Source of the DNA: Pseudomonas sp. BN417
GTDB taxonomy: Bacteria; Pseudomonadota; Gammaproteobacteria; Pseudomonadales; Pseudomonadaceae
Direction of reading: 5' to 3'
Assembly: GCF_029871205.1 (NCBI RefSeq)
Contig: NZ_SSOJ01000145.1
Span: 15,906-48,086 of the forward strand
DNA length: 32,181 nucleotides
The translations under genes and the position numbers were made by a program. A model generated the notes under the pieces. The model saw only the letters and a program-made list of their open reading frames with translations. It made no database searches and had not been told where the DNA came from. Every line of letters begins with the position of its first letter. Position 1 is the first letter of the stretch. Positions 15,299 to 32,181 of the stretch are shown here, one piece after another.

Positions 15299-16333
15299 TC
15301 AGGTCGGCAACACCCCACGCTGGCGCGACATGGTAAGGGCCAGGTCCTCGATCATGTCCTCCTGCCCACCCACGGTGCCGCGACGGCCCAGTTCCACCAG
15401 CAGCTCGCGGGCCTGGATGCCGTACTTCTGCTCGGCGCGCTTGGCGAACAACAGGAACGAGCTGTAGACGCCGGCATAGCCCAGGGTCAGGGCATCGCGG
15501 TCGACGCGGATCGGCTGGTCCATCATCGGCACCACCAGGTCCTCGGCCACGTCCATGATCTTGTAGAGGTCGATGCCGGTCTGCACGCCCATGCGCTCCA
15601 GCACCGCCACGAACACCTCCAGCGGGGTGTTGCCGGCGCCAGCGCCGAGGCCCGCCACCGAGCCGTCGATGCGCGCGGCGCCGGCCTCGATGGCCGCCAG
15701 GGAGTTGGCGATCGCCATGCCCATGTTGTGGTGGCCGTGGAAGCCCACCTCGACATTGGCATCCAGCCCGGCGCGCAGCACGCCGATCTTCTCGGTCACT
15801 TCGTCGGGCAGCATGTAGCCGGCCGAGTCGGTGCAGTAGATGCAGTTGGCGCCGTAGCTCTGCATCAGCCTTGCTTGTTCGAGCAATTTCTCGGCGCTGA
15901 CCATGTGCGCCATCATCAGGAAGCCGACGGTGTCGAGACCCATCTTCGCCGCCATGCCGATGTGCTGGCCGGAGACGTCGGCCTCGGTGCAATGGGTGGC
16001 GACGCGGATGGTGGACACGCCGCAGTCGTGGGCCATCTTCAGGTGGTCGACCGTGCCGATACCCGGCAGCAGGAGGGCGGAAACCTTGGCCTGCTTGAGC
16101 TTGGGAATCACCGCGTCGAAGTACTCCTCGTCGCTGTGGGCCGGGAAGCCGTAGTTCAGCGAGGAGCCGCCCAGGCCGTCGCCGTGGGTGATCTCGATCA
16201 GCGGCACGCCGGCGGCGTCGAGGCCGGTGGCCACCGCGACCATCTCGTCCAGGCTGATCTGGTGGCGCTTGGCATGCATGCCGTCGCGCAGGCTCATGTC
16301 GTGCAGGCGCACGCTCTTACCTTGAAGGTTCAT
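15299..16333 (-). CDS. tesG: 4-hydroxy-2-oxovalerate/2-oxohexanoate-type aldolase
   Basis: This 344-residue class II pyruvate aldolase (BphI/DmpG/HsaF family) would cleave 4-hydroxy-2-oxo acids to pyruvate and an aldehyde, channelled to the partner dehydrogenase. The BphI active-site residues are at identical numbers: R16, metal D17 and H20 in SLRDGMH, metal H199 and H201 in FHGHHNMG, and Y290 (GYAGVY). GGAGA precedes the ATG, 13 bases after the dehydrogenase stop. The hydrolase-hydratase-dehydrogenase-aldolase order equals tesDEFG of Comamonas testosteroni. With steroid genes next door, 4-hydroxy-2-oxohexanoate is the likely substrate. Sequence alone cannot exclude a different meta-cleavage pathway. 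Confidence 0.9.
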
Positions 16334-16346
16334 GGGGTATCTCCAA

Positions 16347-17255
16347 TCAACGGGCTGGGAGCGTCAGGGCGCCCTTGTGGGCTTCTTCGGCGAACATCTC
16401 GGCGGTGCGCAGGCCGGCGGCGGTCATGATGTCCAGGTTGCCGGCGGACTTGGGCAGGAAGTCGCCCAGGCCTTCTACCTCGATGAAGATCGACACCTTG
16501 CGGCCGTCGAACACCGGGCCGTTGATCAGCTTGTAGCCCGGCACGTAGCGCTGCACTTCCTTGACCATGTGCAGCACCGAGGCACGGATTTCCGCCTGGT
16601 CCGGCTCACCTTCGGTGAGGCAGTGGATGGTGTCGCGCATCATCAGCGGCGGTTCGGCCGGGTTGATCACGATGATGGCCTTGCCGCGCTTGGCGCCGCC
16701 GATTTTCTCCACGGCACCGGCGGTAGTGCGGGTGAACTCGTCGATGTTCTGCCGGGTGCCCGGGCCCACCGAGCGCGAGGACACGGTGGCGACAATCTCG
16801 CCATACTCCACCGGCTGCACGCGGGAGACCGCCGCCACCATGGGGATGGTGGCCTGGCCGCCGCAGGTGACCATGTTGACGTTCAGCGCCAGCTTGGCCG
16901 CATGCTCCTTGAGGTTCACCGGCGGCACGCAGTAGGGGCCGATGGCCGCCGGGGTGAGGTCGATCATGATCACGCCAAGCTCGTTGAGCTTGCGGCTGTT
17001 CTCCGCATGCACATAAGCCGAGGTGGCGTCGAAGGCGATGCGGATATCGTCGTCCAGCACATGGGGCAGCAGGCCGTCGACACCCTCTGACGTGGTCTTC
17101 AGGCCGAATTCGGCGGCACGCTTGAGGCCTTCGGAAGTCGGGTCGACGCCCACCATCCACACCGGTTCGATCCATTCCGAACGGCGCATCTTGATCAGCA
17201 GGTCGGTACCAATATTGCCCGGCCCGATGATGGCCGCTTTCAGTTTCTTGCTCAT
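16347..17255 (-). CDS. tesF: Acylating acetaldehyde/propanal dehydrogenase
   Basis: This 302-residue BphJ/DmpF/HsaG-type enzyme oxidises the aldehyde made by the aldolase to an acyl-CoA with NAD+ and CoA. It has the dinucleotide motif [10 protein letters not shown] near the N-terminus and the catalytic Cys at residue 131 ([10 protein letters not shown]). I start at 17255 (MSKKLK) because GGGGGA lies at good spacing. A longer frame would run over the hydratase stop region, and an ATG six bases upstream has no ribosome site. It forms a substrate-channelling complex with the aldolase in studied homologs. Confidence 0.9.
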
Positions 17256-17271
17256 CTCCATTCCCCCGGAG

Positions 17272-18063
17272 TCAGGCGCAGAAGGACACCCGGGCGCTGC
17301 CCAGGCCATCGATGGTCAGTGAGAATTCGTCGCCGGAGCGGGCCGGTTCCAGCGGCACCAGCGAGCCGGAGAGGATGATTTCCCCGGCCTTGAACGGGAT
17401 GCCGAAGGCACCCAGGGTGTTGGCCAGCCAGGCCACCGCGGTGAGCGGGTTGCCCTGCACCGCCGAGCCCAGGCCTTCGCTGATCTTTTCGCCGTTCTTG
17501 AATACCTGCATGCGCAGGTTCGGCAGGTCCAGCTCGCGCGGGTCGCGCGCCTCGCGGCCGATCACGAAGACTCCGCAGGAGGCGTTGTCGGCCACGGTGT
17601 CCTGGATGCGGATCTTCCAGTCGTGGATGCGCGAGTCGACGATCTCGAAGCAGGGCATCACGCATTCGGTGGCGTCCAGCACGTCCTGCTCGGTGACGCC
17701 GGGGCCCACCAGGTCGTGCTTGAGCTTGAAGGCAATCTCGCCCTCGGCGCGGGGCTGGATCAGGCGATTGGCGGAGAGGGAAATCTCCGCCCCGTCGTCG
17801 AACCACATCTCGCGGGTGATGAAGCCGAAGTCCGGCTGGTGCACGTTGAGCATGCGCTGCACGGCCTCGGAGGTGACGCCGATCTTCTTGCCGACTATGG
17901 CGTCGCCCGCCGCCACGCGGCGCTCGATGCTGTAGAGGGAAATGCGGTAGGCGTCCTCGATGGTGATTTCCGGCCAGCGGTCGGTCAGGGGGGCCAGGGT
18001 CTGGGCCTTCAGCAGGGCCTGGTAGAGCTCTTCACCGTACTGGCGTTGCAGGGCTTCGCTCAT
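17272..18063 (-). CDS. tesE: 2-hydroxypenta/hexa-2,4-dienoate hydratase
   Basis: This 263-residue hydratase of the BphH/MhpD/HsaE family (FAH superfamily fold) adds water to 2-hydroxy-2,4-dienoates released by the meta-cleavage hydrolase. Family segments include [23 protein letters not shown] and the C-terminal [16 protein letters not shown]. Its ATG overlaps the hydrolase TGA (ATGA), so the two are coupled. An upstream extension of 26 residues would read back into the hydrolase gene and is rejected. Length is normal for the family. Confidence 0.88.
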
Positions 18064-18887
18064 GGCCGGCCCTCCGCGAGGAAGTCCAGGCAGGTGCGGT
18101 TGAACAGCTCGCGGTGCTCCACCATCACCCAGTGGCCGCATTCGCTGAGCATCACGAAACGGATGTTGCGACAGGCCTCCAGCATGGTCTGGGCGCCGGA
18201 GGATGGGCAGAACTTGTCGTTCATGCCCCAGAAGCCGAGGATCGGGCAGGCCAGCTCGGACAGGCGCGCGGCCATGTTCGGCACCTGCATGGTGCTGAGC
18301 ACGCAGCGCGGCTGCTGCTGCACCACGGCAACGCGCTCGTTGACGGTTTCATCGCTGATCAGGCTCGGGTCGAAGAGCTGCAGCCCGAGCAGGCGGCGCA
18401 TGCCGTCGGCGTCGTTCAGCTCGCCGTTGGCAAAGGCCGCGCCCATCTTCTGGATGCCTTCCATCTGCAGGTAGTACTGCTCCTTCTCCATCAGTCCGCC
18501 GGGGGCCATCAGCACCAGGCGGCTGACGCGCTGCGGCGCATCCAGCGCCAGCTTGATGGCGATGGCGCCGCCCAGGGAGTTGCCCACCAGCACGCAGCGC
18601 TGGATATCCAGGGCGTCCAGCAGACCGGTCAGGGCGTCGACGAAGAAGTCCAGGCTGTAGGTGGTTTCCGGCTTGTCGGAACGGCCGTAGCCCGGCAGGT
18701 CCGGGACGATGGCGCGGTAGCCGAAGCTGGCAAACACCGGGTAGTTCTGCTTGAAGTTGCTGTGGCCGCTGGCGCCGGGGCCGCTGCCATGGATGAAGAC
18801 CACCGGCTCGCCCTCGCCGGCCTCCAGATAGTGCAGGCGCAGGCCATCCGGCAGCGTGACGAATCGCCCTTGCGGTAGCGCGTCCAT
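18060..18887 (-). CDS. tesD: Meta-cleavage product alpha/beta hydrolase (4,9-DSHA hydrolase-like)
   Basis: This 275-residue hydrolase splits the C-C bond of an extradiol ring-fission product. The oxyanion-hole motif HGSGPGASG is at about 33-41, the nucleophile is S104 (GNSLGG), the acid D224 (WGMNDKFCP) and the base H252 (ECGHWVMVEH). It belongs to the BphD/HsaD/TesD group. The steroid context makes the HsaD/TesD role likely, but an aromatic-pathway hydrolase cannot be excluded by reading alone. GGAGAG precedes the ATG. It opens the tesDEFG-like operon, 60 bases after a palindromic operator candidate. The matching ring-cleavage dioxygenase is not in the window. Confidence 0.85.
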   Translation of the reverse strand: MDALPQGRFVTLPDGLRLHYLEAGEGEPVVFIHGSGPGASGHSNFKQNYPVFASFGYRAIVPDLPGYGRSDKPETTYSLDFFVDALTGLLDALDIQRCVLVGNSLGGAIAIKLALDAPQRVSRLVLMAPGGLMEKEQYYLQMEGIQKMGAAFANGELNDADGMRRLLGLQLFDPSLISDETVNERVAVVQQQPRCVLSTMQVPNMAARLSELACPILGFWGMNDKFCPSSGAQTMLEACRNIRFVMLSECGHWVMVEHRELFNRTCLDFLAEGRP

Positions 18888-18946
18888 GGGACTCTCCTCG
18901 GCTTGTAGTTGTGTCGGGATTATTCGGGCGGGCCGGGCGGGCAACA

Positions 18947-18962
18947 TCGTCCGAGAGGACTA
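18947..18962 (-). promoter_or_regulatory. Operator candidate GTCC-N4-GGAC upstream of tesD
   Basis: TCGTCC-GAGA-GGACTA is a near-palindrome. Sixteen bases (18948-18963) recur exactly as the inverse at 19134-19149. Relative to each gene both copies read the same way and lie about 60 bases before the start codon. The third copy is at 25945-25960. Confidence 0.6.
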
Positions 18963-19000
18963 GCAACCGCAGCGGGCTGTTTCCTGTGGGCTGATTTTCT

Positions 19001-19096
19001 GTGGGGGCGAATTCATTCGCTAAGCAGACCGCAGGTCTGCCCTGCAAGGCCCCAGGGGCAGCTGCGCTGCCCGTAGCGAATGAATTCGCCCCCACA
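19001..19096. repeat. REPIN-like element, GAATTCATTCGC family, copy B
   Basis: Outer arms GTGGGGGCGAATTCATTCGC and its inverse enclose two hairpins, GCAGACC-GCA-GGTCTGC and GGCAGC-TGC-GCTGCC. It lies between the two operator candidates in the 323-base tesD/SDR divergent promoter region. Copy C at 22144-22240 is the same element in the opposite orientation. Confidence 0.85.
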
Positions 19097-19134
19097 AGGA
19101 GTCCCTCCACAAGATCTCTGCCCCGCATCGCCCC

Positions 19135-19150
19135 TAGTCCTCTCGGACGT
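19135..19150 (+). promoter_or_regulatory. Operator candidate GTCC-N4-GGAC upstream of the SDR gene
   Basis: TAGTCC-TCTC-GGACGT lies 60-61 bases before the SDR ATG and mirrors the tesD copy. The spacing and orientation relative to the gene match those at tesD, as expected for a shared regulator site. Confidence 0.6.
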
Positions 19151-19210
19151 GGGCGAATCGCCGTGCAATCCCTAGCCTCTCCCCATCGAGAACCGACAAG
19201 CGAGGCAGCC

Positions 19211-19984
19211 ATGGGCGACCCGATGGATTTCAGCGGCAAGGTGGTACTGGTGACCGGTGGCGGCAAGGGTGTGGGGCGCGGCATCAGCCAGCGCTTCCTC
19301 GAACGCGGCGCCCAGGTGGTGATCTGCGGGCGCAACGCCCCGGAGGAGCTGCCGGCCCACAATGGCCGCGAAGCGGCGTTCCTGCCCTGCGACGTGCGCG
19401 ACCTGGACCAGTTGCAGGGCCTGGTGGATGCCATTGCCGAGCGCTTCGGGCGCCTGGACGTGCTGGTCAACAACGCCGGCGGCGCACCTCATGCGGATGC
19501 CGCCACGGTTTCACCGCGCTTCTCCGAATCCATCATCCGCCTCAACCTGCTGGCCCCGCTCAACCTCTGCCAGCTGGCCAACCGGGTGATGCAGGAGCAG
19601 GTCGAAGGCGGCGTCATCATCAATATCTGCAGCGTCAGCGCCATCCGCCCCTCCCCCGGTACCGCCGCCTATGGCGCCGCCAAGGCCGGACTGCTCAACC
19701 TGACCCGCTCGCTGGCAGTGGAGTGGGCGCCGAAGGTGCGGGTGAACGCGGTGACTGCTGGGCTGATCCTCACCGAGCAGGCCGAGATGCATTACGGCGA
19801 TGCCGAGGGCGTGGCGCGGGTGGCCGCCAGCATTCCCCTGCAACGCATGGCCAGCCCTGGCGATATAGGCGATGCCTGCCTGTACCTGGCGTCACCCATG
19901 GCCGGGTACGTGAGCGGCGTGGATATCTGTGTGCATGGCGGTGGGGAGAATCCGGCGTTCCTGGAAGCGGCGGGAGTGAATTGA
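19211..19984 (+). CDS. SDR oxidoreductase of the steroid-catabolism type
   Basis: This 257-residue classical short-chain dehydrogenase has the cofactor motif TGGGKGVGRG (about 15-24), NNAGG (87-91) and the catalytic set S141, Y154 and K158 (YGAAK). The tail GVDICVHGGGENPAFL and the EWAPKVRVNAVTAG segment recall actinobacterial KstR2-regulon SDRs (Rv3549c-like) and ScdE-type proteins; I infer a role in C/D-ring beta-oxidation. The ATG at 19211 follows GAGG. A longer in-frame start would run through the repeat at 19001-19096 and is rejected. It is alone on the plus strand, divergent from tesD and convergent with the SnoaL gene. Confidence 0.85.
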   Translation: MGDPMDFSGKVVLVTGGGKGVGRGISQRFLERGAQVVICGRNAPEELPAHNGREAAFLPCDVRDLDQLQGLVDAIAERFGRLDVLVNNAGGAPHADAATVSPRFSESIIRLNLLAPLNLCQLANRVMQEQVEGGVIINICSVSAIRPSPGTAAYGAAKAGLLNLTRSLAVEWAPKVRVNAVTAGLILTEQAEMHYGDAEGVARVAASIPLQRMASPGDIGDACLYLASPMAGYVSGVDICVHGGGENPAFLEAAGVN

Positions 19985-19990
19985 GAAGCC

Positions 19991-20062
19991 GATGGGTATC
20001 GCTCCGCTCCACCCATCCTACGGAGTGCCACGTAGGATGGGTGGAGCAACGCGATACCCATC
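19991..20062. repeat. Inverted repeat, GATGGGTATCGC..CATCCTACG family
   Basis: Arms GATGGGTATCGC and GCGATACCCATC enclose an inner pair around CCACCCATCCTACG / CGTAGGATGGGTGG. It sits between the convergent SDR and SnoaL genes and ends exactly on the SnoaL stop codon, so it could serve as a terminator for both. A related copy is at about 29371-29458. Confidence 0.8.
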
Positions 20063-20504
20063 AGGTCCGCGCAGCGGACTCCACCATCGAATGCGCCCTG
20101 AAGGCCGTCTCGACTATCTTCCACTGCCCATCGATGCACCGGTAACGGTCCTGGTAGACCCCGCCCAGCTGCCGCGTGGCGCCGGTTTCCGCGTCCAGGT
20201 TGAAGTAGTACAGCGCCCAGCGCGCCTTGGCTTCGTCCTCGGCAACCAGCTCGATCTCCGGGTTGGCGCCGTGATGCAGGTCGATCACCCGCTCGTTGCA
20301 AGCCAGCGATTCGTAGAGCGCGACGAAGCTGTCGCGGTCCCCGAAGGAGCCGACGGGGCCGTAGTCGATGGCGATCTCGCCTTCGGCGAAGCAGTCGCGG
20401 ATCGCCGCCACCTGCTTCAGGTCGCAGGCGTTGAGGTAGCGGTGCTTGAGCTGGCGGATGGCCTCGACGGCTTCGAGGCGGGCAATGCGTTGTTCCAGGT
20501 TCAT
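20061..20504 (-). CDS. SnoaL-like NTF2-fold protein related to bile-acid dehydratase BaiE
   Basis: This 147-residue protein aligns by eye along its length with Clostridium scindens BaiE (bile acid 7-alpha-dehydratase): VEAIRQLKHRY, HHGANPEIEL and DRYRCIDGQWKIVET match BaiE IEAIKELKGKY, HMGHTPEITI and DKYEKIDGQWYILET. BaiE Y30 and H83 correspond to Y23 and H77 here and D35 to D28, but catalytic D106 aligns with Tyr (Y100). It may be a hydroxysteroid dehydratase or isomerase with altered chemistry; function is inferred. Its ATG overlaps the ketosteroid isomerase stop, and it is last in the operon. Confidence 0.75.
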   Translation of the reverse strand: MNLEQRIARLEAVEAIRQLKHRYLNACDLKQVAAIRDCFAEGEIAIDYGPVGSFGDRDSFVALYESLACNERVIDLHHGANPEIELVAEDEAKARWALYYFNLDAETGATRQLGGVYQDRYRCIDGQWKIVETAFRAHSMVESAART

Positions 20505-20887
20505 GGCTGTTCCCTCGCGATCATGTTGGCTTCGCCCCAATAGGCTTTCATGGAGCGGATTCGGCCGTCGGCGTCGAACTCCATCACATCGATCACCTCG
20601 ATGGTGCTGAGGCGACCGCCCCAGTCGAGGTCGACGCAAAAGGGCACGGCGCCGCAGCCGCGGGTGGCGCGGATCGAACCGTCGAGGCGGGCGGTGGCGT
20701 CCAGGCGCCCCAGCCCCTCGCGGTAGAAGCGCGCGATGGCCTCGATGCCCACGTAGGGCGGCTTGCCCACCGGGTCCTCGACCACCGCGTCCGCTGCATA
20801 CAGGGCGAGGATGCCGTCGATATCGACGGCACTCACCAGTTCCACATAGCGGGCGAGTGTCGCCCGCACCTGCTGTTCACTGATCAT
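20501..20887 (-). CDS. ksi: Steroid delta(5)-3-ketoisomerase (KSI)
   Basis: This 128-residue NTF2-fold enzyme moves the steroid C5-C6 double bond to C4-C5. It is clearly similar to Pseudomonas putida and Comamonas KSI: ARYVELV, VVEDPVGKPPYVG, GCGAVPF, EVIDVMEFDADGRI and MKAYWGEAN. The catalytic set is Y14, D38 (VEDP) and D100 (VIDV), essentially the Comamonas numbering (Y14, D38, D99). The start at 20887 follows AGGAGC; a longer frame adds 20 Arg-rich residues and is rejected. This gene is the main evidence that the surrounding cluster acts on steroids. Confidence 0.9.
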   Translation of the reverse strand: MISEQQVRATLARYVELVSAVDIDGILALYAADAVVEDPVGKPPYVGIEAIARFYREGLGRLDATARLDGSIRATRGCGAVPFCVDLDWGGRLSTIEVIDVMEFDADGRIRSMKAYWGEANMIAREQP

Positions 20888-20898
20888 CGAGATGCTCC

Positions 20899-22101
<1,203 letters not shown>

Positions 22102-22143
22102 CTGGTTGTCCTCGAATTCATTGGCCTGCTGGGGCCTCTTTTT

Positions 22144-22240
22144 GTGGGGGCGAATTCATTCGCTAAGGGCAGCGCAGCTGCCCCGTTTGGCCTCGCAGGG
22201 CAGACTTGCGGTCTGCATAGCGAATGAATTCGCCCCCACA
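22144..22240. repeat. REPIN-like element, GAATTCATTCGC family, copy C
   Basis: Same element as copy B in reverse orientation, with near-identical arms and inner hairpins. It lies inside the seven-gene steroid operon, between the MaoC stop and the thiolase start, where it may weaken read-through or protect the upstream message. Confidence 0.85.
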
Positions 22241-22259
22241 GGAAAAGCAAAGGCAGGCC

Positions 22260-22721
22260 TCAGCCCGCCGGGTAGTAGCGGCTGATGGTGTCCACCACAC
22301 AGCCGGGACGCTCTTCTCCCTCGATCTCCACGCTGACGCGGATGGTGGCCTGCACCCCGCCCTTCACTTCCTCGGCGGCCACCAGCTGGGCGCTGCCGCG
22401 TACCCGACTGCCGGCGCGCACCACGTTGGGGAAGCGCACCTTGTCGCAGCCGTAGTTCACCCCCATGGAAATGCCGCGTACCTCGACAATCTGCGGCAGG
22501 AACAGGTTGACCAGGGCCAGGGTCAGGTAGCCGTGGGCAATGCAGGCACCGAAGGGGCCGCTGGCGGCGCGAGCCGGGTCGACGTGAATCCACTGGTGAT
22601 CGCCGGTGGCTTCGGCGAACTGGTCGATGCGCGACTGCTCCACGCTGATCCAGTCGCTGTGGCCGAGTTGCTCGCCGACGCGTTCCAGCAGGGCGAAGGG
22701 AGTGTCGAAAATGACCGCCAT
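22260..22721 (-). CDS. MaoC-like (R)-specific enoyl-CoA hydratase
   Basis: This 153-residue single hot-dog domain carries the hydratase-2 signature FAEATGDHQWIHVD, with D41 and H46 as the expected catalytic pair, followed by GPFGACIAHGYLTLAL. It resembles the NodN-like branch of MaoC proteins. It probably hydrates an enoyl-CoA from the neighbouring acyl-CoA dehydrogenases. The start lies two bases past the dehydrogenase stop; a much longer in-frame extension runs antiparallel to nothing and overlaps the SDR gene, so it is rejected. Confidence 0.85.
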   Translation of the reverse strand: MAVIFDTPFALLERVGEQLGHSDWISVEQSRIDQFAEATGDHQWIHVDPARAASGPFGACIAHGYLTLALVNLFLPQIVEVRGISMGVNYGCDKVRFPNVVRAGSRVRGSAQLVAAEEVKGGVQATIRVSVEIEGEERPGCVVDTISRYYPAG

Positions 22722-22723
22722 GC

Positions 22724-23506
22724 TCAGGCCCTCTGGCTGGAGACCGACAGCACTTCGCCGGTCATGTAGGAGCTGTAGTCGCTGGCCAGGAACATCATCA
22801 CGTTGGCCACTTCCCAGACTTCGGCGGCGCGGCCGAAGGCCTCGCGCGAGGCGAGCTGGTCGAGGAGTTCCTTGGGCGCGGATTTCTTCAGGAAGTCGTG
22901 CAGGGCGATGCTCGGGCTCACCGCGTTGATGCGGATGCCATGCTCGGCAGCTTCCACCGCCGCGCAGCGGGTCAGTGCCATCACCCCGGCCTTGGCCGCG
23001 GCGTAGTGGCTCTGCTCCTTCTGCGCACGCCAGCCGAGCACCGAGGCGTTGTTGACGATCACGCCCCGCTGGCGCTCCATCATCTTCGGCAGCATGGCGC
23101 GGGTCATGCGCATGGTGCCGGTGAGGGTCACGTCCAGCACCCGGTTCCACTCCTCGTCGCTCATCTCCACCAGCAAGCGGGAGCCGCCCATGCCGGCGTT
23201 GTTGATCAGCACATCGACGCCGTCCAGGTCACGTTCGGCGGCGGCCACCAGGGCCTGCACCTGTTCTTCCGAGGTGACGTTGCACTCGCGGGTGTAGACC
23301 CTGTCCAGCCCGGTGGCTTCGCGGATCTTCAGGGCCGCTTCCTGCAGACGGCCTTCGTGGATGTCGCTGATCATCAGCGCCCGGCAGCCTTCCTCGGCGG
23401 CACGCAGGGCGGCGGAGTAGCCGATGCCGGCGCCGGCCGCGGCGGTAATCAGCACCGACTTGCCGCGCAGCAGGCCATGGCCGGGAACGTAGTTGGGAAT
23501 GTTCAT
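22724..23506 (-). CDS. ipdF: IpdF-like SDR (5-OH-HIP-CoA dehydrogenase type)
   Basis: This 260-residue SDR has an N-terminal GHGLLRGKSVLITAAAGAGIG and the catalytic triad S155, Y168 and K172. The segments NNASVLGWRAQKEQSHYAA and ALTRCAAVEAAEHGIRINAV match my memory of Rv3559c/IpdF almost residue for residue. IpdF oxidises the 5-hydroxyl of HIP-CoA during C/D-ring degradation. GAGGACC precedes the ATG, 14 bases after the acyl-CoA dehydrogenase stop. This gene and KSI together define the pathway. Confidence 0.87.
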   Translation of the reverse strand: MNIPNYVPGHGLLRGKSVLITAAAGAGIGYSAALRAAEEGCRALMISDIHEGRLQEAALKIREATGLDRVYTRECNVTSEEQVQALVAAAERDLDGVDVLINNAGMGGSRLLVEMSDEEWNRVLDVTLTGTMRMTRAMLPKMMERQRGVIVNNASVLGWRAQKEQSHYAAAKAGVMALTRCAAVEAAEHGIRINAVSPSIALHDFLKKSAPKELLDQLASREAFGRAAEVWEVANVMMFLASDYSSYMTGEVLSVSSQRA

Positions 23507-23520
23507 GCAAGGTCCTCGAA

Positions 23521-24714
23521 TCAGGCGCGCACGCGCGGCTCGCGGGGCATGCCCAGCGCGCGTTCGGCGATGATGTTGCGTTGGATTTCGTTGGTGCCGC
23601 CGTAGATGGTGTCGGAGCGGCTGAAGAGGAACATCGACTGCAGGCGGCCCAGCTCGTAGGGACCGCCTTCCAGCAGCTCGGCGTCCGGGCCGAGCACGTC
23701 CATGGCCAGCTTGCCCAGGTCGACGTGCCAGTTGGCCCAGCACAGCTTGTAGATCATCGCCTCGCGGCGCAGCGAGCCGTCCTGGGCACCGGAAAGCATG
23801 CGCAGGGAGTTGTAGCGCAGGATGCGCAGCCCGCCCCAGGCTTCGGCGATGCGCTGGCGCAGCAGCGGGTCGCGGTCGGCGCCGTTGGCCTTGGCAATGC
23901 GGATGATTTCTTCCAGTTCGTTCTGGAACAGCATCTGCTGGCCGAGTGTAGACACGCCGCGCTCGAAACCGAGCAGGGCCATGGCGATCTTCCAGCCATC
24001 GCCGGGCGCGCCGAGGATATTGGTGGCGTCGGTTTCGGCATCATCGAAGAACACCTCGTTGAACTCCGAGGTGCCGGTGAGCTGCTCGATCGGGCGCACC
24101 GTGATGCCGGACTGGGCCATGGGCACCAGCAGGAAGGACAGGCCCTGGTGGCCGACGCTGCCCGCTGTGGTGCGGGCAATCACGAAGCACCACTCGGACT
24201 CGTGGGCGAGCGAGGTCCAGACCTTCTGCCCGCTGATGCGCCATTTGCCGCTGGCTTCGTCCAGCACCGCGCGGGTCTTCACGTTGGCCAGGTCCGAGCC
24301 GGCACCCGGTTCGGAATAACCCTGGCACCAGAATTCGGTGCCGGCGACTATCCCCGGCAGCAGCCGGCGCTTCTGCTCCTCGGTGCCGAACGCGGCGATG
24401 GTCGGCCCGGCCAGGCCTTCGCCTATGTGGCCCATGCGCCCCGGCCCGCCGACGCGGGCGTATTCCTCGTGGAAGATCACCTGCTGGCTGATGGACAGGC
24501 CGCGCCCGCCGTGCTCCTTCGCCCAGCCGACGCAGGTCCAGCCACCTTCGGCGAGCTTGCGCTCCCAGGCCTTGCGCTCCTCGGGGAAGCTGTGTTCGTC
24601 CCCCGGCCCGCCGCGAAAGCGCAACGGCTCGAACTCGCCGCACAGGTTGTCCGCCAACCAGCTGGCGACCTCGAGGCGGAAGGCTTCATCGGCCTCACTG
24701 AAACTGATCTTCAT
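23521..24714 (-). CDS. ipdE1: Acyl-CoA dehydrogenase, catalytic subunit type (IpdE1/FadE30-like)
   Basis: This 397-residue flavoprotein of the acyl-CoA dehydrogenase family has CQGYSEPGAGSDLA and WTSLAH for flavin/substrate contacts. In MCAD the base is Glu376 in IYEGT; here that position is Gly (TIYGGTNEIQ). E251 in ALLGFERGVS is in place for the isovaleryl-type/ChsE base instead. Steroid-specific dehydrogenases are heteromeric with a base in one subunit only. The neighbour lacks the residue, so this is the probable catalytic half. ATG and upstream TGA overlap (ATGA). Confidence 0.83.
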   Translation of the reverse strand: MKISFSEADEAFRLEVASWLADNLCGEFEPLRFRGGPGDEHSFPEERKAWERKLAEGGWTCVGWAKEHGGRGLSISQQVIFHEEYARVGGPGRMGHIGEGLAGPTIAAFGTEEQKRRLLPGIVAGTEFWCQGYSEPGAGSDLANVKTRAVLDEASGKWRISGQKVWTSLAHESEWCFVIARTTAGSVGHQGLSFLLVPMAQSGITVRPIEQLTGTSEFNEVFFDDAETDATNILGAPGDGWKIAMALLGFERGVSTLGQQMLFQNELEEIIRIAKANGADRDPLLRQRIAEAWGGLRILRYNSLRMLSGAQDGSLRREAMIYKLCWANWHVDLGKLAMDVLGPDAELLEGGPYELGRLQSMFLFSRSDTIYGGTNEIQRNIIAERALGMPREPRVRA

Positions 24715-25868
24715 GCGATTTCCCCCAGGAGGGCGGCGGCGATGCGCTCGCGGTGCCAGGACGGCGCGCCGAGGAAGGCCTCGCTGGCCCGGGCGCGCTT
24801 GAAATAGAGGTGCGGGTCGTATTCCCAGGTGAAGCCGACGCCACCGTGCAACTGGATGGACTCCGCCGCGCAGTGGAAGAAGGCTTCCGAGCAGCGCGCC
24901 TTGGCCAGGGCAGCGGCCAGGGGCAGTTCGCCGGCGACCGCGGCCTCGCCATTGGCCGCCAGGGCTTCCTCGGCCACACAGGCGGCGTAGTAGGCGGCGG
25001 AGCGTGCGCACTCCACCTCCAGCATCATGTCGGCGGCGCGGTGCTTGATAGCCTGGAAGCTGGCGATGGCGCGGCCGAACTGCTGGCGCTCGGCGACGTA
25101 GGCCAGGGTCAGGTCGAGGGCCTGCTGGGCGCCGCCGGTCTGCTCGGCGGCCTGGGCCGCACAGGCCAGCTGCAGGACCTTCTCCAGCAACTCGCCACCC
25201 TGCCCCGGCGCGCCCAGGCGGGCATCGGCCTGCACATAGACCTGCTGCAGGCTCACCTCGGCGAGCTTGCGGGTCTGGTCCAGGGTGGGCGTGAGGCGAC
25301 GGCTGATGCCGGCGGTGTCGGCCGGCACGGCAAACAGGCTGACGCCCTCGCTGTCGCGAGCGGCGACGATCAGCAGGCCGGCGCTGTGGCCATCCACCAC
25401 CTGGCGCAGGGTGCCGTCGATCACGAAACCGCTGCCCTCGGCACGGACGCTGGCCTGCACCGCGTCCAGGCCGTTGCGGTTGTTGCTCGCCCAGGCCAGG
25501 GTGGCGGTCAGGCTGCCCTCCGCCAGCTGCGGCAGCCAGCGCTGCTTCTGCGCCTGGTCGCCGCCCAGCAGCAAGGCCGGGGTGGCCAGGCAGGCGCTGG
25601 CGAAAAAGGGTGAACAGAGCAGGCGCCGGCCCATCTGCTCCAGCAGGATGGCCAGCTCGACGAAGCCCAGGCCAAGGCCGCCGTACTCTTCGGGGATATG
25701 GATGGCCGGCCAGACCATCTCGGTGCACAGGCGCTGCCAGAGCGCGGGGTCATGGCCCAGCTCGCTGGCCATGGCCGCCCGCACGGCGGCGGAGTCGGAT
25801 ACATCCGCGAGAAAGCTCTCGGCGGACTCGCGGATCATCTCCTGCTCATCGCTGAACGCGAATTCCAT
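24711..25868 (-). CDS. ipdE2: Acyl-CoA dehydrogenase, partner subunit type (IpdE2/FadE33-like)
   Basis: This 385-residue acyl-CoA dehydrogenase homolog has an intact N-terminal helical domain (IPEEYGGLGLGFVELA) and the C-terminal QLHGGVGFTWEYDPHLYFKRA. The two positions that usually supply the catalytic Glu are not Glu, as in the non-catalytic partner of the actinobacterial ChsE/IpdE heterotetramers. I therefore infer an alpha2beta2 enzyme with the downstream gene product. AGAAGG lies before the ATG at 25868. It is the first gene of the operon, 76 bases after the third operator copy. Confidence 0.83.
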   Translation of the reverse strand: MEFAFSDEQEMIRESAESFLADVSDSAAVRAAMASELGHDPALWQRLCTEMVWPAIHIPEEYGGLGLGFVELAILLEQMGRRLLCSPFFASACLATPALLLGGDQAQKQRWLPQLAEGSLTATLAWASNNRNGLDAVQASVRAEGSGFVIDGTLRQVVDGHSAGLLIVAARDSEGVSLFAVPADTAGISRRLTPTLDQTRKLAEVSLQQVYVQADARLGAPGQGGELLEKVLQLACAAQAAEQTGGAQQALDLTLAYVAERQQFGRAIASFQAIKHRAADMMLEVECARSAAYYAACVAEEALAANGEAAVAGELPLAAALAKARCSEAFFHCAAESIQLHGGVGFTWEYDPHLYFKRARASEAFLGAPSWHRERIAAALLGEIA

Positions 25869-25944
25869 AAGGCTGCCTTCTTGTCGTTCTGGGGGCGCGC
25901 GCCCCCGGTGGGGAGGAGTCTGGCGGCTTGCTCGAGGCGGGGAA

Positions 25945-25960
25945 TCGTCCGGATGGACGA
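25945..25960 (-). promoter_or_regulatory. Operator candidate GTCC-N4-GGAC upstream of the ipdE2 operon
   Basis: TCGTCC-GGAT-GGACGA is a perfect palindrome with a four-base spacer, 76 bases before the ATG. It shares the GTCC-N4-GGAC core with 18947-18962 and 19135-19150. The 8-mer CGAGAGGA, also within the tesD site, directly adjoins it at 25961-25968. Confidence 0.6.
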
Positions 25961-26312: not shown

Positions 26313-26636
26313 ATGAAAGACTACTTTCCCGTACAAAGCACATCCCTGCTGTACCGCGTCGCCCTACTGGTGAAAGAGGCGCGCCTGCGCATGGGCATAC
26401 GACAGGCTGACCTTGCAGAGCAAGCCGGGATCTCCCTTCGTGCGATTCGGCATATCGAGGCTGGGAAAGCAGAGGGCGTTTCATTACGCGATTTCATGCT
26501 GGCGCTGTTTACCGTAGGGATTTCTGACAGGGTGTTCCAAGCACTGCTGGATGACCCCGCATTCGATGCCGATTTTCTGGAAACCAATGCCAACAAGCGT
26601 GTACGACTACCGCGTAGCAATGCAGAGGACTTCTGA
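26313..26636 (+). CDS. hipB: HipB-like XRE antitoxin/repressor
   Basis: This 107-residue protein has an XRE helix-turn-helix at about residues 22-65 (RMGIRQADLAEQAGISLRAIRHIEAGKA). It is predicted to neutralise the HipA kinase and repress the operon. Its TGA shares the A of the HipA ATG (TGATG), a one-base overlap typical of toxin-antitoxin pairs. GC content and codon use are lower than in the steroid genes, suggesting acquisition. The start follows CTGGTGAAACCTT, a weak ribosome site; ATG 26313 gives the full domain. Confidence 0.83.
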   Translation: MKDYFPVQSTSLLYRVALLVKEARLRMGIRQADLAEQAGISLRAIRHIEAGKAEGVSLRDFMLALFTVGISDRVFQALLDDPAFDADFLETNANKRVRLPRSNAEDF

Positions 26637-27862
26637 TGCCCAGTGCCTACATCTACATGGAGTGCCCGATCACGGGTGCGACAGTGACCTTAGGCAGGCT
26701 TACCTTGGACGGTGGCATCGGCACATTCCTCTATGCGCCGGAGGCAGTTGAGGGCAAGTACTGGGTGCCGGACCCGATTCGGTTCCCGCTGTCCAGTCGC
26801 CCGATTACCGTGCTCAAAAATGGCGGTGTGCCCGGATTCATCGACGATGCGATGCCTGACGGTTGGGGGGAGCGGTTGTTACGGCGCACACGCAACGGCG
26901 CGCTCGATCCGATTCAACTCCTGCTGTTGTCACCGAACGAGGATCGTGCAGGAAACATCATGGCCGGCGAGCAGCGTACGCCCAGGCCGGGTGTGGGCGA
27001 GAAGCCCATGAAAATGCTCGACGCCAAGGGGCTCGACCAATTCATAGAGGTCTGCGCGGCGATCTATGACAGCCAGCTGACCAATGAACAGCTGGAGGCG
27101 TTGAAAATACGGGATCAGCGCTCGGCAGTCGGTGGCGCAAGGCCGAAGCGCACATACCGTTTCGACCACAGGCTGATTTTGGCGAAGCCGCGCGATAAGT
27201 TCGATCACTACGACCTGCCGGCATTCGAGTACGCCTGCATGACCTTTGCGGCTCACAAGGGGATGAGCGTTGCCCGTACCGCCTTACATCGCAGCGAGAG
27301 AGGCAACACGCTCCTGGTCGAGCGATTTGACCGGAAGTGGTCTGAGGATCAGAAGAAATTTCACCGTATCCCAATGATGAGTGGTTTGACCCTGCTTGAT
27401 GCCGAATGGCGTGTGCAAACCAAAAAGGGATGGATTTACGCCGCGCTGGCCGATGAGCTGTACCGCAGAGGTGCGCCAGATGCCGATCGGCAAGAGCTCT
27501 ATCGGCGAATGGCGTACAACGCCCTGGTGGGGAATAGTGATGATCATCCCCGCAACCACGCGGTGATCTGGCAGGACGGAGTTTGGCGGCTCTCGCCCAT
27601 GTACGACGTACTACCAGTGTTGGGAGAGGGCCCAGCACAGGGGCTCGCGATGGATGTTGGAATGAAAGGGCCCCTGTTGAGCCGAGGCAACCTGTTGAGT
27701 CACCACCAGCACTTTGCGCTGTCCGAGGAGACGGCGGCGGGTATTTTGGATGAGGTCGCAGCCTGGGAACCGGAATTGAAAGACCACTATGCGCAGCACT
27801 TGGCTGGAGCCGAGCTGGATGCCGCAGTGGAAGCAACCAGCGGAAAGAAACTGCTGACCTAA
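26636..27862 (+). CDS. hipA: HipA-like serine/threonine kinase toxin
   Basis: This 408-residue HipA-fold kinase includes the N-subdomain (GGVPGFIDDAMPDGWGERLL), the Gly-rich loop with possible autophosphorylation serine S163 (QRSAVGGARPK), ATP lysine K184 (ILAKP), the catalytic motif N300-D302-H304-N307 (NSDDHPRN) and metal-binding D324 (SPMYD). All key residues are present, so it is likely active. E. coli HipA phosphorylates GltX; the target here is not predictable. It is translationally coupled to hipB. Downstream is repeat-rich non-coding DNA. Confidence 0.87.
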   Translation: MPSAYIYMECPITGATVTLGRLTLDGGIGTFLYAPEAVEGKYWVPDPIRFPLSSRPITVLKNGGVPGFIDDAMPDGWGERLLRRTRNGALDPIQLLLLSPNEDRAGNIMAGEQRTPRPGVGEKPMKMLDAKGLDQFIEVCAAIYDSQLTNEQLEALKIRDQRSAVGGARPKRTYRFDHRLILAKPRDKFDHYDLPAFEYACMTFAAHKGMSVARTALHRSERGNTLLVERFDRKWSEDQKKFHRIPMMSGLTLLDAEWRVQTKKGWIYAALADELYRRGAPDADRQELYRRMAYNALVGNSDDHPRNHAVIWQDGVWRLSPMYDVLPVLGEGPAQGLAMDVGMKGPLLSRGNLLSHHQHFALSEETAAGILDEVAAWEPELKDHYAQHLAGAELDAAVEATSGKKLLT

Positions 27863-31054: not shown

Positions 31055-32181
31055 GTAGATAGTGCTCCTGCCCTCCACACTCACTCGAATAGCTCGAACG
31101 GTATCCAGAGCCCACCTCAGGTGAGAGCTCGCATTCACAAGGTCGTGCCGAGTGCAGTGATGATCCTTCTGGAGAGATTGAGGAGTTCGCATGTCCGGCA
31201 TCGTTGGCATTGACATTGCCAAGCACAGTTTCGATATCGCCACCCAGCAGGCCAACGGCAAGTACCGCACCAAAGCCAAGCTGGCCAATAGCGCGGCGGG
31301 TTTTCAGGTACTGCAGGAGTGGCTGCTCAAATACAGCGAACCAGGGGCCTGGATCGTGATGGAGGCCACGGGGACCTACCACGAGGCGCTGGCCGAATAC
31401 TTCCATGGCTTGGGCTACCGGGTTTGCGTGACCAATCCGGCGCAGATTGCCCTCTATGCCCGCAGCCAACTGCAACGGGTGAAGACGGACCAGGTCGATG
31501 CCAAGCTGATTGCCGACTATGGCGCCCGGCACGTGGACGAGTTGCGTGCCTGGCGGCCCGAACCGCCGGCCATCCGCCGCCTGCGGGCCCTGGTACGGCG
31601 CCTGCAGGACCTCCAGGAGATTGCCCAGATGGAGCGCAATCGCTTGGACGTCGCCGATGTCAGTGTGCAGGACTCGATTCGTTCGGTGCTGCAACACATC
31701 GAACAGCAGATCGCCGAAACCTTGAAGGCGATTCAGGCGCACATTGACGACGATCCCGATTTACGGGGTAAGCGCGACTTGCTGACCAGTATCGACGGCG
31801 TCGCGGACAAGACTGCGGCCCTGCTTCTGGCCGAGCTGGGAGACCCGCTGCAATTCAAGAATGCCCGGGCCATCACGGCGTTTGCCGGGCTGAATCCGCA
31901 GCTGCGGGAGTCCGGCACCCAAAAGGCCTACGCCTGCATTTCCCGGATGGGCTCCAGCCGACTCCGCGCGGGTCTCTACATGCCGGCCATCGTTGCGCTG
32001 ACCCACAACCCGGCGATCAAAGCGCTGGGACAACGCCTGCGAAGTCGAGGCAAGGCCGGGAAGCAGATCGTCTGCGCCGCGATGCGCAAGCTGCTGCACA
32101 TCGCTTATGGCGTCCTGAAATCGGGCCAGCCTTTCGATGCAAAACTGGCCCTTGCGCACTAGGTTCCAAGACGGTATCTAC
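31055..32181 (+). mobile_element. IS110-family insertion sequence (right end near window edge)
   Basis: Transposase gene plus about 135 bases of upstream non-coding DNA. The left end is tentative: GTAGATA at 31055-31061 mirrors TATCTAC at 32175-32181, only seven bases. IS110 elements generally lack clear terminal repeats, so the limits are uncertain. The upstream part can fold (GAGC/GCTC and CACC/GGTG at 31108-31130) and is where IS110-group bridge RNA is encoded. Confidence 0.55.
31191..32162 (+). CDS. IS110-family DEDD transposase
   Basis: This 323-residue transposase has an N-terminal RuvC-like DEDD domain with D8 (GIDIAK), E58 (VMEATGTYHE), D100 and D103 (VKTDQVDAK). A coiled-coil middle follows, then a C-terminal Transposase_20 domain with the serine S241 (LNPQLRESGTQ). 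These match the catalytic residues described for IS621 in kind, and S241 in number. All are intact and the length is complete, so the element could be active. GAGGAG precedes the ATG. It ends 19 bases before the window edge. Confidence 0.92.
   Translation: MSGIVGIDIAKHSFDIATQQANGKYRTKAKLANSAAGFQVLQEWLLKYSEPGAWIVMEATGTYHEALAEYFHGLGYRVCVTNPAQIALYARSQLQRVKTDQVDAKLIADYGARHVDELRAWRPEPPAIRRLRALVRRLQDLQEIAQMERNRLDVADVSVQDSIRSVLQHIEQQIAETLKAIQAHIDDDPDLRGKRDLLTSIDGVADKTAALLLAELGDPLQFKNARAITAFAGLNPQLRESGTQKAYACISRMGSSRLRAGLYMPAIVALTHNPAIKALGQRLRSRGKAGKQIVCAAMRKLLHIAYGVLKSGQPFDAKLALAH

Follow-up and report, generated by a model that had tools for sequence, protein, structure and literature searches.

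Steroid degradation in Pseudomonas sp. BN417 raises the question of how genes for different parts of the pathway are controlled. A stretch of 32,181 nucleotides of this genome (here called the window; part of contig C139 of a 6.56-Mb genome in 166 contigs) contains the tesDEFG genes, a divergently transcribed SDR-family gene and an operon for C/D-ring degradation that starts with an ipdE2-like gene. A reading of the sequence alone had proposed that the three promoters share a palindromic motif, GTCC-N4-GGAC, and had named TetR or LuxR regulators as candidates for its recognition. The comparative analysis described here indicates that the motif is almost certainly a real and widely conserved promoter element of a steroid regulon. 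The element is shared by many steroid-degrading bacteria and most probably serves as the binding site of an activator that is known but poorly understood (TesR, also called TeiR).

A directional box in front of three steroid promoters

The core GTCC-N4-GGAC was found at 18949-18960, 19137-19148 and 25947-25958, within three 16-mers that are present exactly as the sequence-only reading had described them (Table 1). The tesD and SDR boxes, each oriented toward its own gene, have CTAGTCCTCTCGGACG in common (16 exact bases). The former is separated by 59 bases from the ATG of tesD (18887, minus strand) and the latter by 60 bases from the ATG of the SDR gene (19211), which agrees with the claimed positions of 60 and 61 bases ahead of the start codon. 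The ipdE2 box is indeed a perfect palindrome, TCGTCC-N4-GGACGA, and lies 76 bases before the ipdE2-like ATG (25868, minus strand). A fourth match to the core (1972-1983) lies within a gene and has the wrong flanks. Four cores in the window compare with 0.68 expected, and four were reached in 2 of 100 shuffles; because this enrichment is modest, statistics on the window were not used as the main support.

The motif is shared, as had been proposed, but its description as a plain palindrome had to be amended. It is directional, TAGTCY-N4-RGACGATG pointing toward the gene, and it is accompanied by a -10 hexamer at a fixed distance (see below). The SDR box ends in ...GACGT and thus represents a variant, which is considered stable rather than decayed, since the same ending is kept in all 12 congeners that encode the steroid dioxygenase TesB.

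Distribution of the box in the genome

The exact pattern TMGTCC-N4-GGACKA occurs at 13 places in the genome: six on contig C150, two each on C24 and C139, and one each on C75, C81 and C148. Genes were called with a home-made codon model on the contigs, or parts of them, around the matches, and gene starts outside the window are approximate. Eleven of the sites are intergenic (ten on the steroid contigs C24, C139 and C150, one on C75) and two lie inside unrelated core genes ('nusA' and 'astA', named by eye). For one exact site (C24:5883) no gene start was called within 300 bases downstream. Downstream of exact sites lie, among others, tesD, the ipdE2 operon, a gene of the 3-ketosteroid-dehydrogenase type, an hsaB-like flavin reductase gene, and SDR, SnoaL-like, EthD and SRPBCC genes; sites with one mismatch were found upstream of tesB, of a gene for a LuxR-type protein (tesR) and of DUF1214, NUDIX and Rieske-oxygenase genes. 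TAGTCC is the distal half and GGACGA the gene-side half, typically 55-85 bases before the start codon. The names hsaB-like and KshA-like (the Rieske gene), those of the cysDN genes in this cluster and those in the Burkholderiaceae stretches discussed below were assigned by eye; the hsaB-like and KshA-like genes gave no NCBIfam match at E 1e-60.

A sequence-only profile (R1) was made from 58 sites of other genomes and none from this one (58 of the 60 listed from 91 non-redundant sites; one locus, L106, and one site of L135 were left out). Its 13 best matches in this genome (E 2e-7 to 0.033) are all on C139, C150 and C24, which together amount to 163 kb of 6,563 kb, or 2.5% of the bases. The tesD box is the top match (E 2e-7) and the ipdE2 box has an E-value of 0.033; the first match outside the steroid contigs follows at 0.084. 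Twelve matches score better than the best match (0.029) in any of five TesB-less congeners. The scan scored 150 of 2266 first-look candidates, and weak sites may be missed.

Several sites point to further genes. Boxes at C150:44221, 62781 and 62925 and at C24:6498 precede EthD-domain, SRPBCC, DUF1214 and NUDIX genes, which are candidate regulon members. A weak box (C75:33658-33673, L023; R1 E-value 0.6) lies before a FAD-binding, KstD-like gene off the main cluster. The first gene after a perfect-palindrome box on C24 is an open reading frame (ORF) of 67 amino acids (C24:10248-10451, L016) with an SDR-like start, an abrupt end and no Pfam match, which looks like a gene remnant.

Conservation within the genus and the Pseudomonadaceae

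Among 18 genomes of the genus, 13 contain 6-10 directional sites and five contain 0 or 1. All 12 TesB-encoding genomes of the genus besides BN417, located via the tesD box, have kept the three boxes of the window and the three -10 hexamers at the orthologous promoters, and the 22 bases between box and -10 vary among them. Many of the N4 spacers recur between genomes. Neither of the outcomes that the sequence-only reading had named as contrary to its proposal was therefore observed: the exact sites are not as frequent within genes (11 of 13 are intergenic), and the three sites are not missing from orthologous promoters. Together with the genome-wide matches, this strongly supports a shared regulatory element that joins tesDEFG, the SDR gene and the ipdE2 operon.

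In a survey of 398 Pseudomonadaceae genomes, exact TAGTCC-N4-GGACGA sites were counted and TesB was searched. At least three exact sites were found in 46 of 68 genomes with TesB versus 0 of 330 without (Fisher p ~8e-44, relatedness ignored). All 31 genomes in which TesB shows at least ~70% identity have 5-11 sites, the 37 genomes at 51-61% identity have 0-7, and the 330 TesB-less genomes have 0-2 (mean 0.21).

A -10 hexamer at a fixed distance from the box

For the analysis of promoter geometry, 218 sites were reduced to 175 at less than 70% identity and aligned on the core pattern. The conserved block covers columns 1-18, where the columns beyond the selecting pattern are informative as well (T17, 0.91; G18, 0.83). 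A second block, at columns 39-44, has the composition of a -10 hexamer (A40 0.70, A42 0.63, A43 0.61, T44 0.81). At least four of the six letters of TATAAT are present at column 39 in 108 of the 175 sites, compared with 21 at the adjacent column 40 and 0-12 at the other offsets between 20 and 80. The element thus includes a sigma70-like -10 hexamer at a fixed distance, 22 bases past the 16-base core. At least three -10 letters are in place in 14 of the 20 oriented intergenic sites of the BN417 genome.

If T44 is taken as position -7, the centre of the palindrome (column 8.5) falls at -42.5; this placement is inferred from the -10 hexamer, as is the transcription start. A centre near -42.5, overlapping the -35 region, is the classical position for a LuxR-type activator. 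With the start so placed, the promoters combine what is expected of LuxR-activated ones: an inverted repeat at a fixed position overlapping -35, and a sigma70 -10.

The box beyond the Pseudomonadaceae

To cover other lineages, the best 80 of 213 TesB-encoding stretches were inspected, among which no named Comamonas locus is present. A box with at most one mismatch was found within 250 bases upstream of tesB in 60 of the 80 loci, with 0.0 expected from mononucleotide shuffles. These loci include those of Endozoicomonas arenosclerae, an Oceanospirillaceae metagenome-assembled genome (MAG), Marinobacterium halophilum, Pseudoduganella and a Paucimonas MAG. Several boxes were found on a Caballeronia plasmid, and the tesB site of Burkholderia arboris has two mismatches. 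In two sphingomonad tesB stretches, neither a profile match (E 0.5) nor a site with at most one mismatch was found.

The family of Pseudoduganella (Burkholderiaceae) was represented by 195 genomes, 12 of which have TesB matches at E 1e-60. A box is present upstream of tesB (at most two mismatches) in all six genomes with a strong TesB match; the tesB loci examined in the six genomes with a weak match have no site with at most one mismatch. Stretches from five of the six strong-TesB genomes of this family (that of G763), which cover parts of these genomes, yielded 22 pattern matches, 20 of them with at least three -10 letters in place. The boxes precede tesB and other genes, including some that were named by eye as HsaA-like, TesD-like and flavin-reductase-like.

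A cluster of the steroid-degradation type was observed on a 174-kb plasmid of Vibrio alfacsensis (plas1; L243/L276), from the intestine of a diseased turbot. Three sites with at most one mismatch are found there, before tesB-like, acyl-CoA-dehydrogenase-family and FixA-like genes, and the gene run to which the FixA-like gene belongs terminates in a TesR relative.

The cysDN genes, for sulfate activation, lie in or beside steroid clusters of three lineages (C150:59354-62127, L020/L021, in BN417; G850:C33:26294, L330; and L276:24142-26547 in Vibrio). They were named by eye in BN417 and G850 and are annotated in the Vibrio plasmid. A box precedes cysD in two of the three lineages, and the one in BN417 is weak.

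TesR-type proteins as candidate regulators

The conserved regulator gene that the sequence-only reading had predicted has a good candidate in the relatives of TesR/TeiR. Four LuxR-type genes are present in the steroid clusters of BN417, outside the window on the other two steroid contigs. Two of three TesR paralogues score above the GerE cut-off of 23.5 bits (C24_5, 26.9 bits; C150_50, 36.3 bits) and one scores below it (C150_49, 20.8 bits). The three have the recognition helix RNTxxAHLRxxFxKxG in common and the fourth LuxR-type protein differs. Relatives of this fourth gene were noticed, with no dedicated search, in L100, L135 and, cut off, in L111.

TesR relatives (E at most 1e-30) were found in 73 of the 398 Pseudomonadaceae genomes, including all 68 that encode TesB; the five genomes with TesR and without TesB have no exact site. 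Outside the family, 18 genomes in which TesB matches strongly were tested, and all 18 have a TesR relative (best E 1.1e-80 or better); the set includes 12 chosen genomes from non-Pseudomonas tesB loci rather than every such locus. Three genomes, G414, G558 (95% complete) and G640 (84% complete), have a TesB-like gene and 0-1 relaxed site, and TesR was not detected in them at E 1e-20.

Among the examined loci, 67 distinct C-terminal ends of the TesR type were compared, and 61 have the pattern NTx(R/K)x(H/Q)LR; 27 of these 61 come from outside the Pseudomonadaceae and show 32-62% identity to the nearest BN417 paralogue. The six ends that lack it belong to four distant homologues (26-28% identity), to the fourth-type paralogue in L100 and to a copy in L104. 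In the latter (G040:C1:3076081-3077040) the frame runs into a histidine-threonine repeat ahead of the helix-turn-helix (HTH); in this assembly the gene appears to be frame-broken.

Divergent tesR and tesB genes, each preceded by a box, are found in Pseudomonas sp. 30_B and P. citronellolis LMG 18378. The tesR box, TAGGCCGAACGGACGA, lies ~62-70 bases before tesR and is much like the C150_50 promoter of BN417, which suggests that tesR is autoregulated.

The structure predicted for one TesR (389 amino acids; mean pLDDT 77, pTM 0.53) has a domain at the N terminus, a long helix, a PAS-like domain and, at the C terminus, a helical HTH part. In structural alignments the N-terminal part matches GAF regions of phytochromes; the rows mostly cover residues 9-190, so that the PAS and HTH parts were barely tested, and the listed families are not exhaustive. 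Foldseek matches to the whole model include VqmA and EL222, in which a PAS or LOV sensor is likewise fused to a GerE/LuxR-type HTH, and profile matches in the PDB include the HTH domains of GerE, NarL and VpsT.

An AraC-type gene (C150:10277-11236) was considered as regulator and rejected. It was found in 0 of 104 other steroid loci (E at most 1e-25), compared with 30 for TesR; 20 of these loci were chosen around TesR or TesB matches, and in the 80 chosen by TesB the numbers are 0 and 13. The AraC-type gene has no BLAST similarity to the compared HTH gene of Vibrio.

Proposed mechanism and alternatives

Taken together, the data argue for the following explanation, which we regard as quite probable. 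The promoter element would be a compound one in which the box serves as the operator half. TAGTCY-N4-RGACGATG would be bound, at about -42.5 and overlapping -35, by a homodimeric LuxR-family activator of the TesR/TeiR type, which has sensor domains resembling GAF and PAS together with a helix-turn-helix of the GerE kind and is encoded beside steroid genes on the other contigs. The activator would recruit sigma70 RNA polymerase to the -10 hexamer that starts 22 bases past the 16-base core. The signal sensed would be a steroid or a degradation intermediate. In this way the promoters of tesDEFG, of the SDR gene and of the ipdE2 operon would be switched on jointly with about ten others, among them those of tesB, the hsaB-like flavin reductase gene, the kstD-type gene and one tesR paralogue. 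Activation from about -42.5 is highly probable, and recognition of the box by TesR-type proteins is probable, with good confidence.

A number of observations weigh against this explanation. The reversed-pattern control is about equal to or above the motif count in many genomes (7 versus 9 in BN417); because of this, raw counts are no proof by themselves, and they were used only as a contrast between genomes with and without TesB, the evidence consisting of this contrast and of location. Fewer than three exact sites are present in 22 of the 68 TesB-encoding Pseudomonadaceae genomes, and the exact motif seems to be missing from some clades with TesB (g5, g15 and g18). In a looser scan of five such genomes with 0-1 exact site (G124, G021, G232, G167 and G059), relaxed forms (TAGTCY, TAGGCY or TAAGCC before GGACGA or AGACGA) were found before genes, including in the tesB promoter, and the low exact counts in these five are read as probable divergence, not loss. 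No box lies directly upstream of tesB in 20 of the 80 tesB loci; in nine of these a relaxed site is present in another part of the stretch, and the other 11 stretches contain none. In BN417 the SDR variant box is not detected by profile R1 at E up to 5, and six of the 20 oriented intergenic sites have at most two -10 letters in place. As to the regulator, the co-occurrence of TesR with TesB is partly hitchhiking, TesR being located in the steroid cluster, and three paralogues with the same helix do not allow paralogues to be paired with promoters. Finally, published accounts portray TeiR as a membrane protein of polar location that has kinase activity (PMC6678751, PMC8399759), which is unexpected for a soluble activator, and a different LuxR-type repressor is reported for one steroid gene of Comamonas testosteroni (PMC6678751, PMC8700777).

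The palindrome could instead be the operator of a repressor, TetR-like or other, that is released by a steroid CoA-ester, as are KstR and KstR2 in actinobacteria. A palindrome overlapping -35 fits a repressor too, several repressors of steroid genes, one of the LuxR type, are reported in C. testosteroni (PMC6678751, PMC8700777), and the estrogen regulon of Caenibius has the TetR-type EdcR operator. That the box stands at one set distance from the -10 in 108 of 175 sites, however, is expected of an activator and unnecessary for a repressor, and TesR is the only regulator found conserved alongside the box, other families having been given no systematic screen and KstR no search. The only TetR gene scanned (C139:14311-14886) encodes a BetI-type C-terminal domain and lies ~16 kb from tesG. 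A repressor is thus considered unlikely. Of the TetR or LuxR regulator originally proposed, the LuxR part is favoured because the geometry is fixed at -42.5 and a LuxR recognition helix is conserved along with the box. Another LuxR-type regulator could read the box, for instance the divergent fourth paralogue, which is on the same contig and has a GerE domain, but its helix is AVSAARNYSKNIYAKLG instead of RNTxxAHLRxxFxKxG, and this appears quite improbable.

We see very little room for the idea that the conserved block is the -35 part of an alternative sigma promoter with no separate operator. The block does stand at a fixed distance from a -10-like hexamer. This hexamer, however, is sigma70-like (A40, A42, A43, T44), and the block ahead of it forms a 6-4-6 inverted repeat over columns 1-18, too distal for a -35 element alone; promoters of extracytoplasmic function (ECF) sigma factors would have a -10 of another type and a -35 element 16-17 bases upstream, and the -10 found here is TAnAAT-like. 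Chance or base composition, to which the modest core count in the window (2 of 100 shuffles) and the equally frequent reversed-pattern controls genome-wide might point, is a practically negligible explanation: it is contradicted by the dependence on TesB, the position, the conservation and the -10 spacing, and is refuted by the comparative tests.

Comparison with known systems

The TesR/TeiR-activator explanation agrees with what is known of C. testosteroni, in which TesR/TeiR is a positive regulator of the steroid clusters (PMC6678751; PMC13101464; PMC6895838) and is reported to be required for induction, in strain TA441 for the clusters of tesB, tesA1 and tesA2 (PMC6895838). The regulator family, its position in a steroid cluster, the kind of target genes and, in print, positive regulation are alike. 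As there, a LuxR-family (GerE) regulator is encoded with the steroid genes, and it is present wherever the regulon is; here the box, the -10 spacing and a regulon of many genera are defined in addition. The cluster of Pseudomonas stutzeri Chol1 contains two TeiR-like genes, and deletion of one delayed growth on cholate (unpublished data in PMC8399759). According to PMC6895838, strains of C. testosteroni are the only testosterone degraders for which tesR-like genes had been reported, whereas the relatives found here are spread far wider, over 73 of 398 Pseudomonadaceae genomes. According to the same source, Novosphingobium tardaugens has no TeiR-like gene and its cluster is only slightly induced, which is consistent with the absence of a box from the two sphingomonad stretches; a later paper describes a LuxR-type gene in its progesterone cluster and another on plasmid pNL2 (PMC12239570). 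No operator or box sequence for TesR/TeiR was found in the searchable literature, the original TeiR paper being outside that search. A LuxR-type activator with an inverted-repeat box is a known kind of system, and, as far as could be searched, the operator, its geometry and its breadth apparently are not in print.

The motif of KstR and KstR2 differs from the box, and both proteins are TetR-type repressors. They act on the same pathway in actinobacteria, KstR2 controlling C/D-ring genes including ipd (PMC5380842). EdcR of Caenibius tardaugens is similar in that an operator palindrome for a steroid pathway was found by promoter comparison, and differs in being a repressor with a TetR-type operator, TnnCnnTACnAnTnGTAnnGnnA, that overlaps the -10. 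CrbR, which controls acetate utilisation in Pseudomonas, is also a LuxR-family activator that acts through an imperfect inverted repeat (ACTU), one that is conserved in gammaproteobacterial promoters (PMC5715377); it is a two-component response regulator with another regulon, and the likeness concerns the regulator family and the type of site.

Genes of the window and their neighbourhood

The coordinates of the features are collected in Table 1. The best match of the ipdE2-like gene is pimD_small (218.1 bits, cut-off 652.7). The statement that the window contains no regulator gene is correct as regards steroid regulators; the window does contain a HipB-like HTH gene and regulators of chemotaxis.

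Table 1. Promoter elements, regulator genes and steroid genes of Pseudomonas sp. BN417; positions refer to the window unless a contig is given
Feature	Position	Strand	Remarks
tesD-promoter box	18947..18962	-	TAGTCCTCTCGGACGA then TG; identical in 12/12 TesB+ congeners
SDR-promoter variant box	19135..19150	+	TAGTCCTCTCGGACGT; GACGT variant in 12/12 TesB+ congeners
ipdE2-operon promoter box	25945..25960	-	TCGTCCATCCGGACGA; conserved in 12/12 TesB+ congeners
tesD-promoter -10 box	18919..18924	-	AATAAT; starts 22 bases past 16-base core; kept in 12/12 congeners
SDR-promoter -10 box	19173..19178	+	TAGCCT; starts 22 bases past 16-base core; kept in 12/12 congeners
ipdE2-operon promoter -10 box	25917..25922	-	CAGACT; starts 22 bases past 16-base core; kept in 12/12 congeners
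TesR paralogue	C24:6634-7728		GerE profile match
TesR paralogue	C150:56605-57771		GerE profile match
TesR paralogue	C150:57970-59133		GerE profile match
Fourth LuxR-type gene	C150:86803-88008 (= L022:6656-7861)		GerE domain; helix AVSAARNYSKNIYAKLG
tesG (4-hydroxy-2-oxovalerate aldolase)	15299..16333	-	above cut-off
tesF (acetaldehyde dehydrogenase, acylating)	16347..17261	-	above cut-off
tesE (2-oxopent-4-enoate hydratase type)	17272..18063	-	388.6 bits, cut-off 408.8
tesD (HsaD/BphD-like meta-cleavage product hydrolase)	18060..18887	-	best NCBIfam HsaD 189.6 bits, below 400-bit cut-off
SDR family oxidoreductase (PRK07856 type)	19211..19984	+	above cut-off
Second SnoaL-like protein of ipdE2 operon	20061..20504	-	
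SnoaL-like protein of ipdE2 operon	20501..20887	-	
Thiolase of ipdE2 operon	20899..22101	-	
MaoC-type hydratase of ipdE2 operon	22260..22721	-	
SDR of ipdE2 operon	22724..23506	-	
Second acyl-CoA dehydrogenase of ipdE2 operon	23521..24714	-	pimC_large 225.1 bits, below cut-off
ipdE2-like acyl-CoA dehydrogenase, first gene of C/D-ring operon	24711..25868	-	IpdE2 195.8 bits, cut-off 450

Beside the ipdE2 promoter lies a HipBA-type pair that was missed by the codon model, an HTH_3 gene (26313-26636, plus strand) followed by a HipA-like gene (26636-27862, plus strand). An IS110-family transposase is found at 31191-32162 of the window, close to where C139 ends, and at the end of C150 lies an ORF (C150:98930-99901) whose start is the same. 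In the congener G016 many boxes lie on a single contig (C75:395,892-517,506). Because of this, and of the same-start ORFs at the ends of C139 and C150, the steroid genes of these two contigs, the two 'halves' of the pathway, are probably one cluster split by the assembly.

Implications

The TesR paralogues raise the possibility of one DNA code with many sensors, in which proteins with differing sensor domains and the same helix would read one box, so that various steroids or intermediates could feed into one regulon, the operator-regulator pair having spread with the pathway across Gammaproteobacteria, Burkholderiales and plasmids. We consider this conceivable, if somewhat short of probable.

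Steroids degraded by bacteria of this kind include bile salts and hormones. A precise operator with its promoter geometry makes the control of the steroid pathway directly testable, and the box may serve as a part for steroid biosensors. It also allows candidate pathway genes to be listed in any genome, here those for EthD, DUF1214, SRPBCC, SnoaL and NUDIX proteins and, weakly, cysDN.

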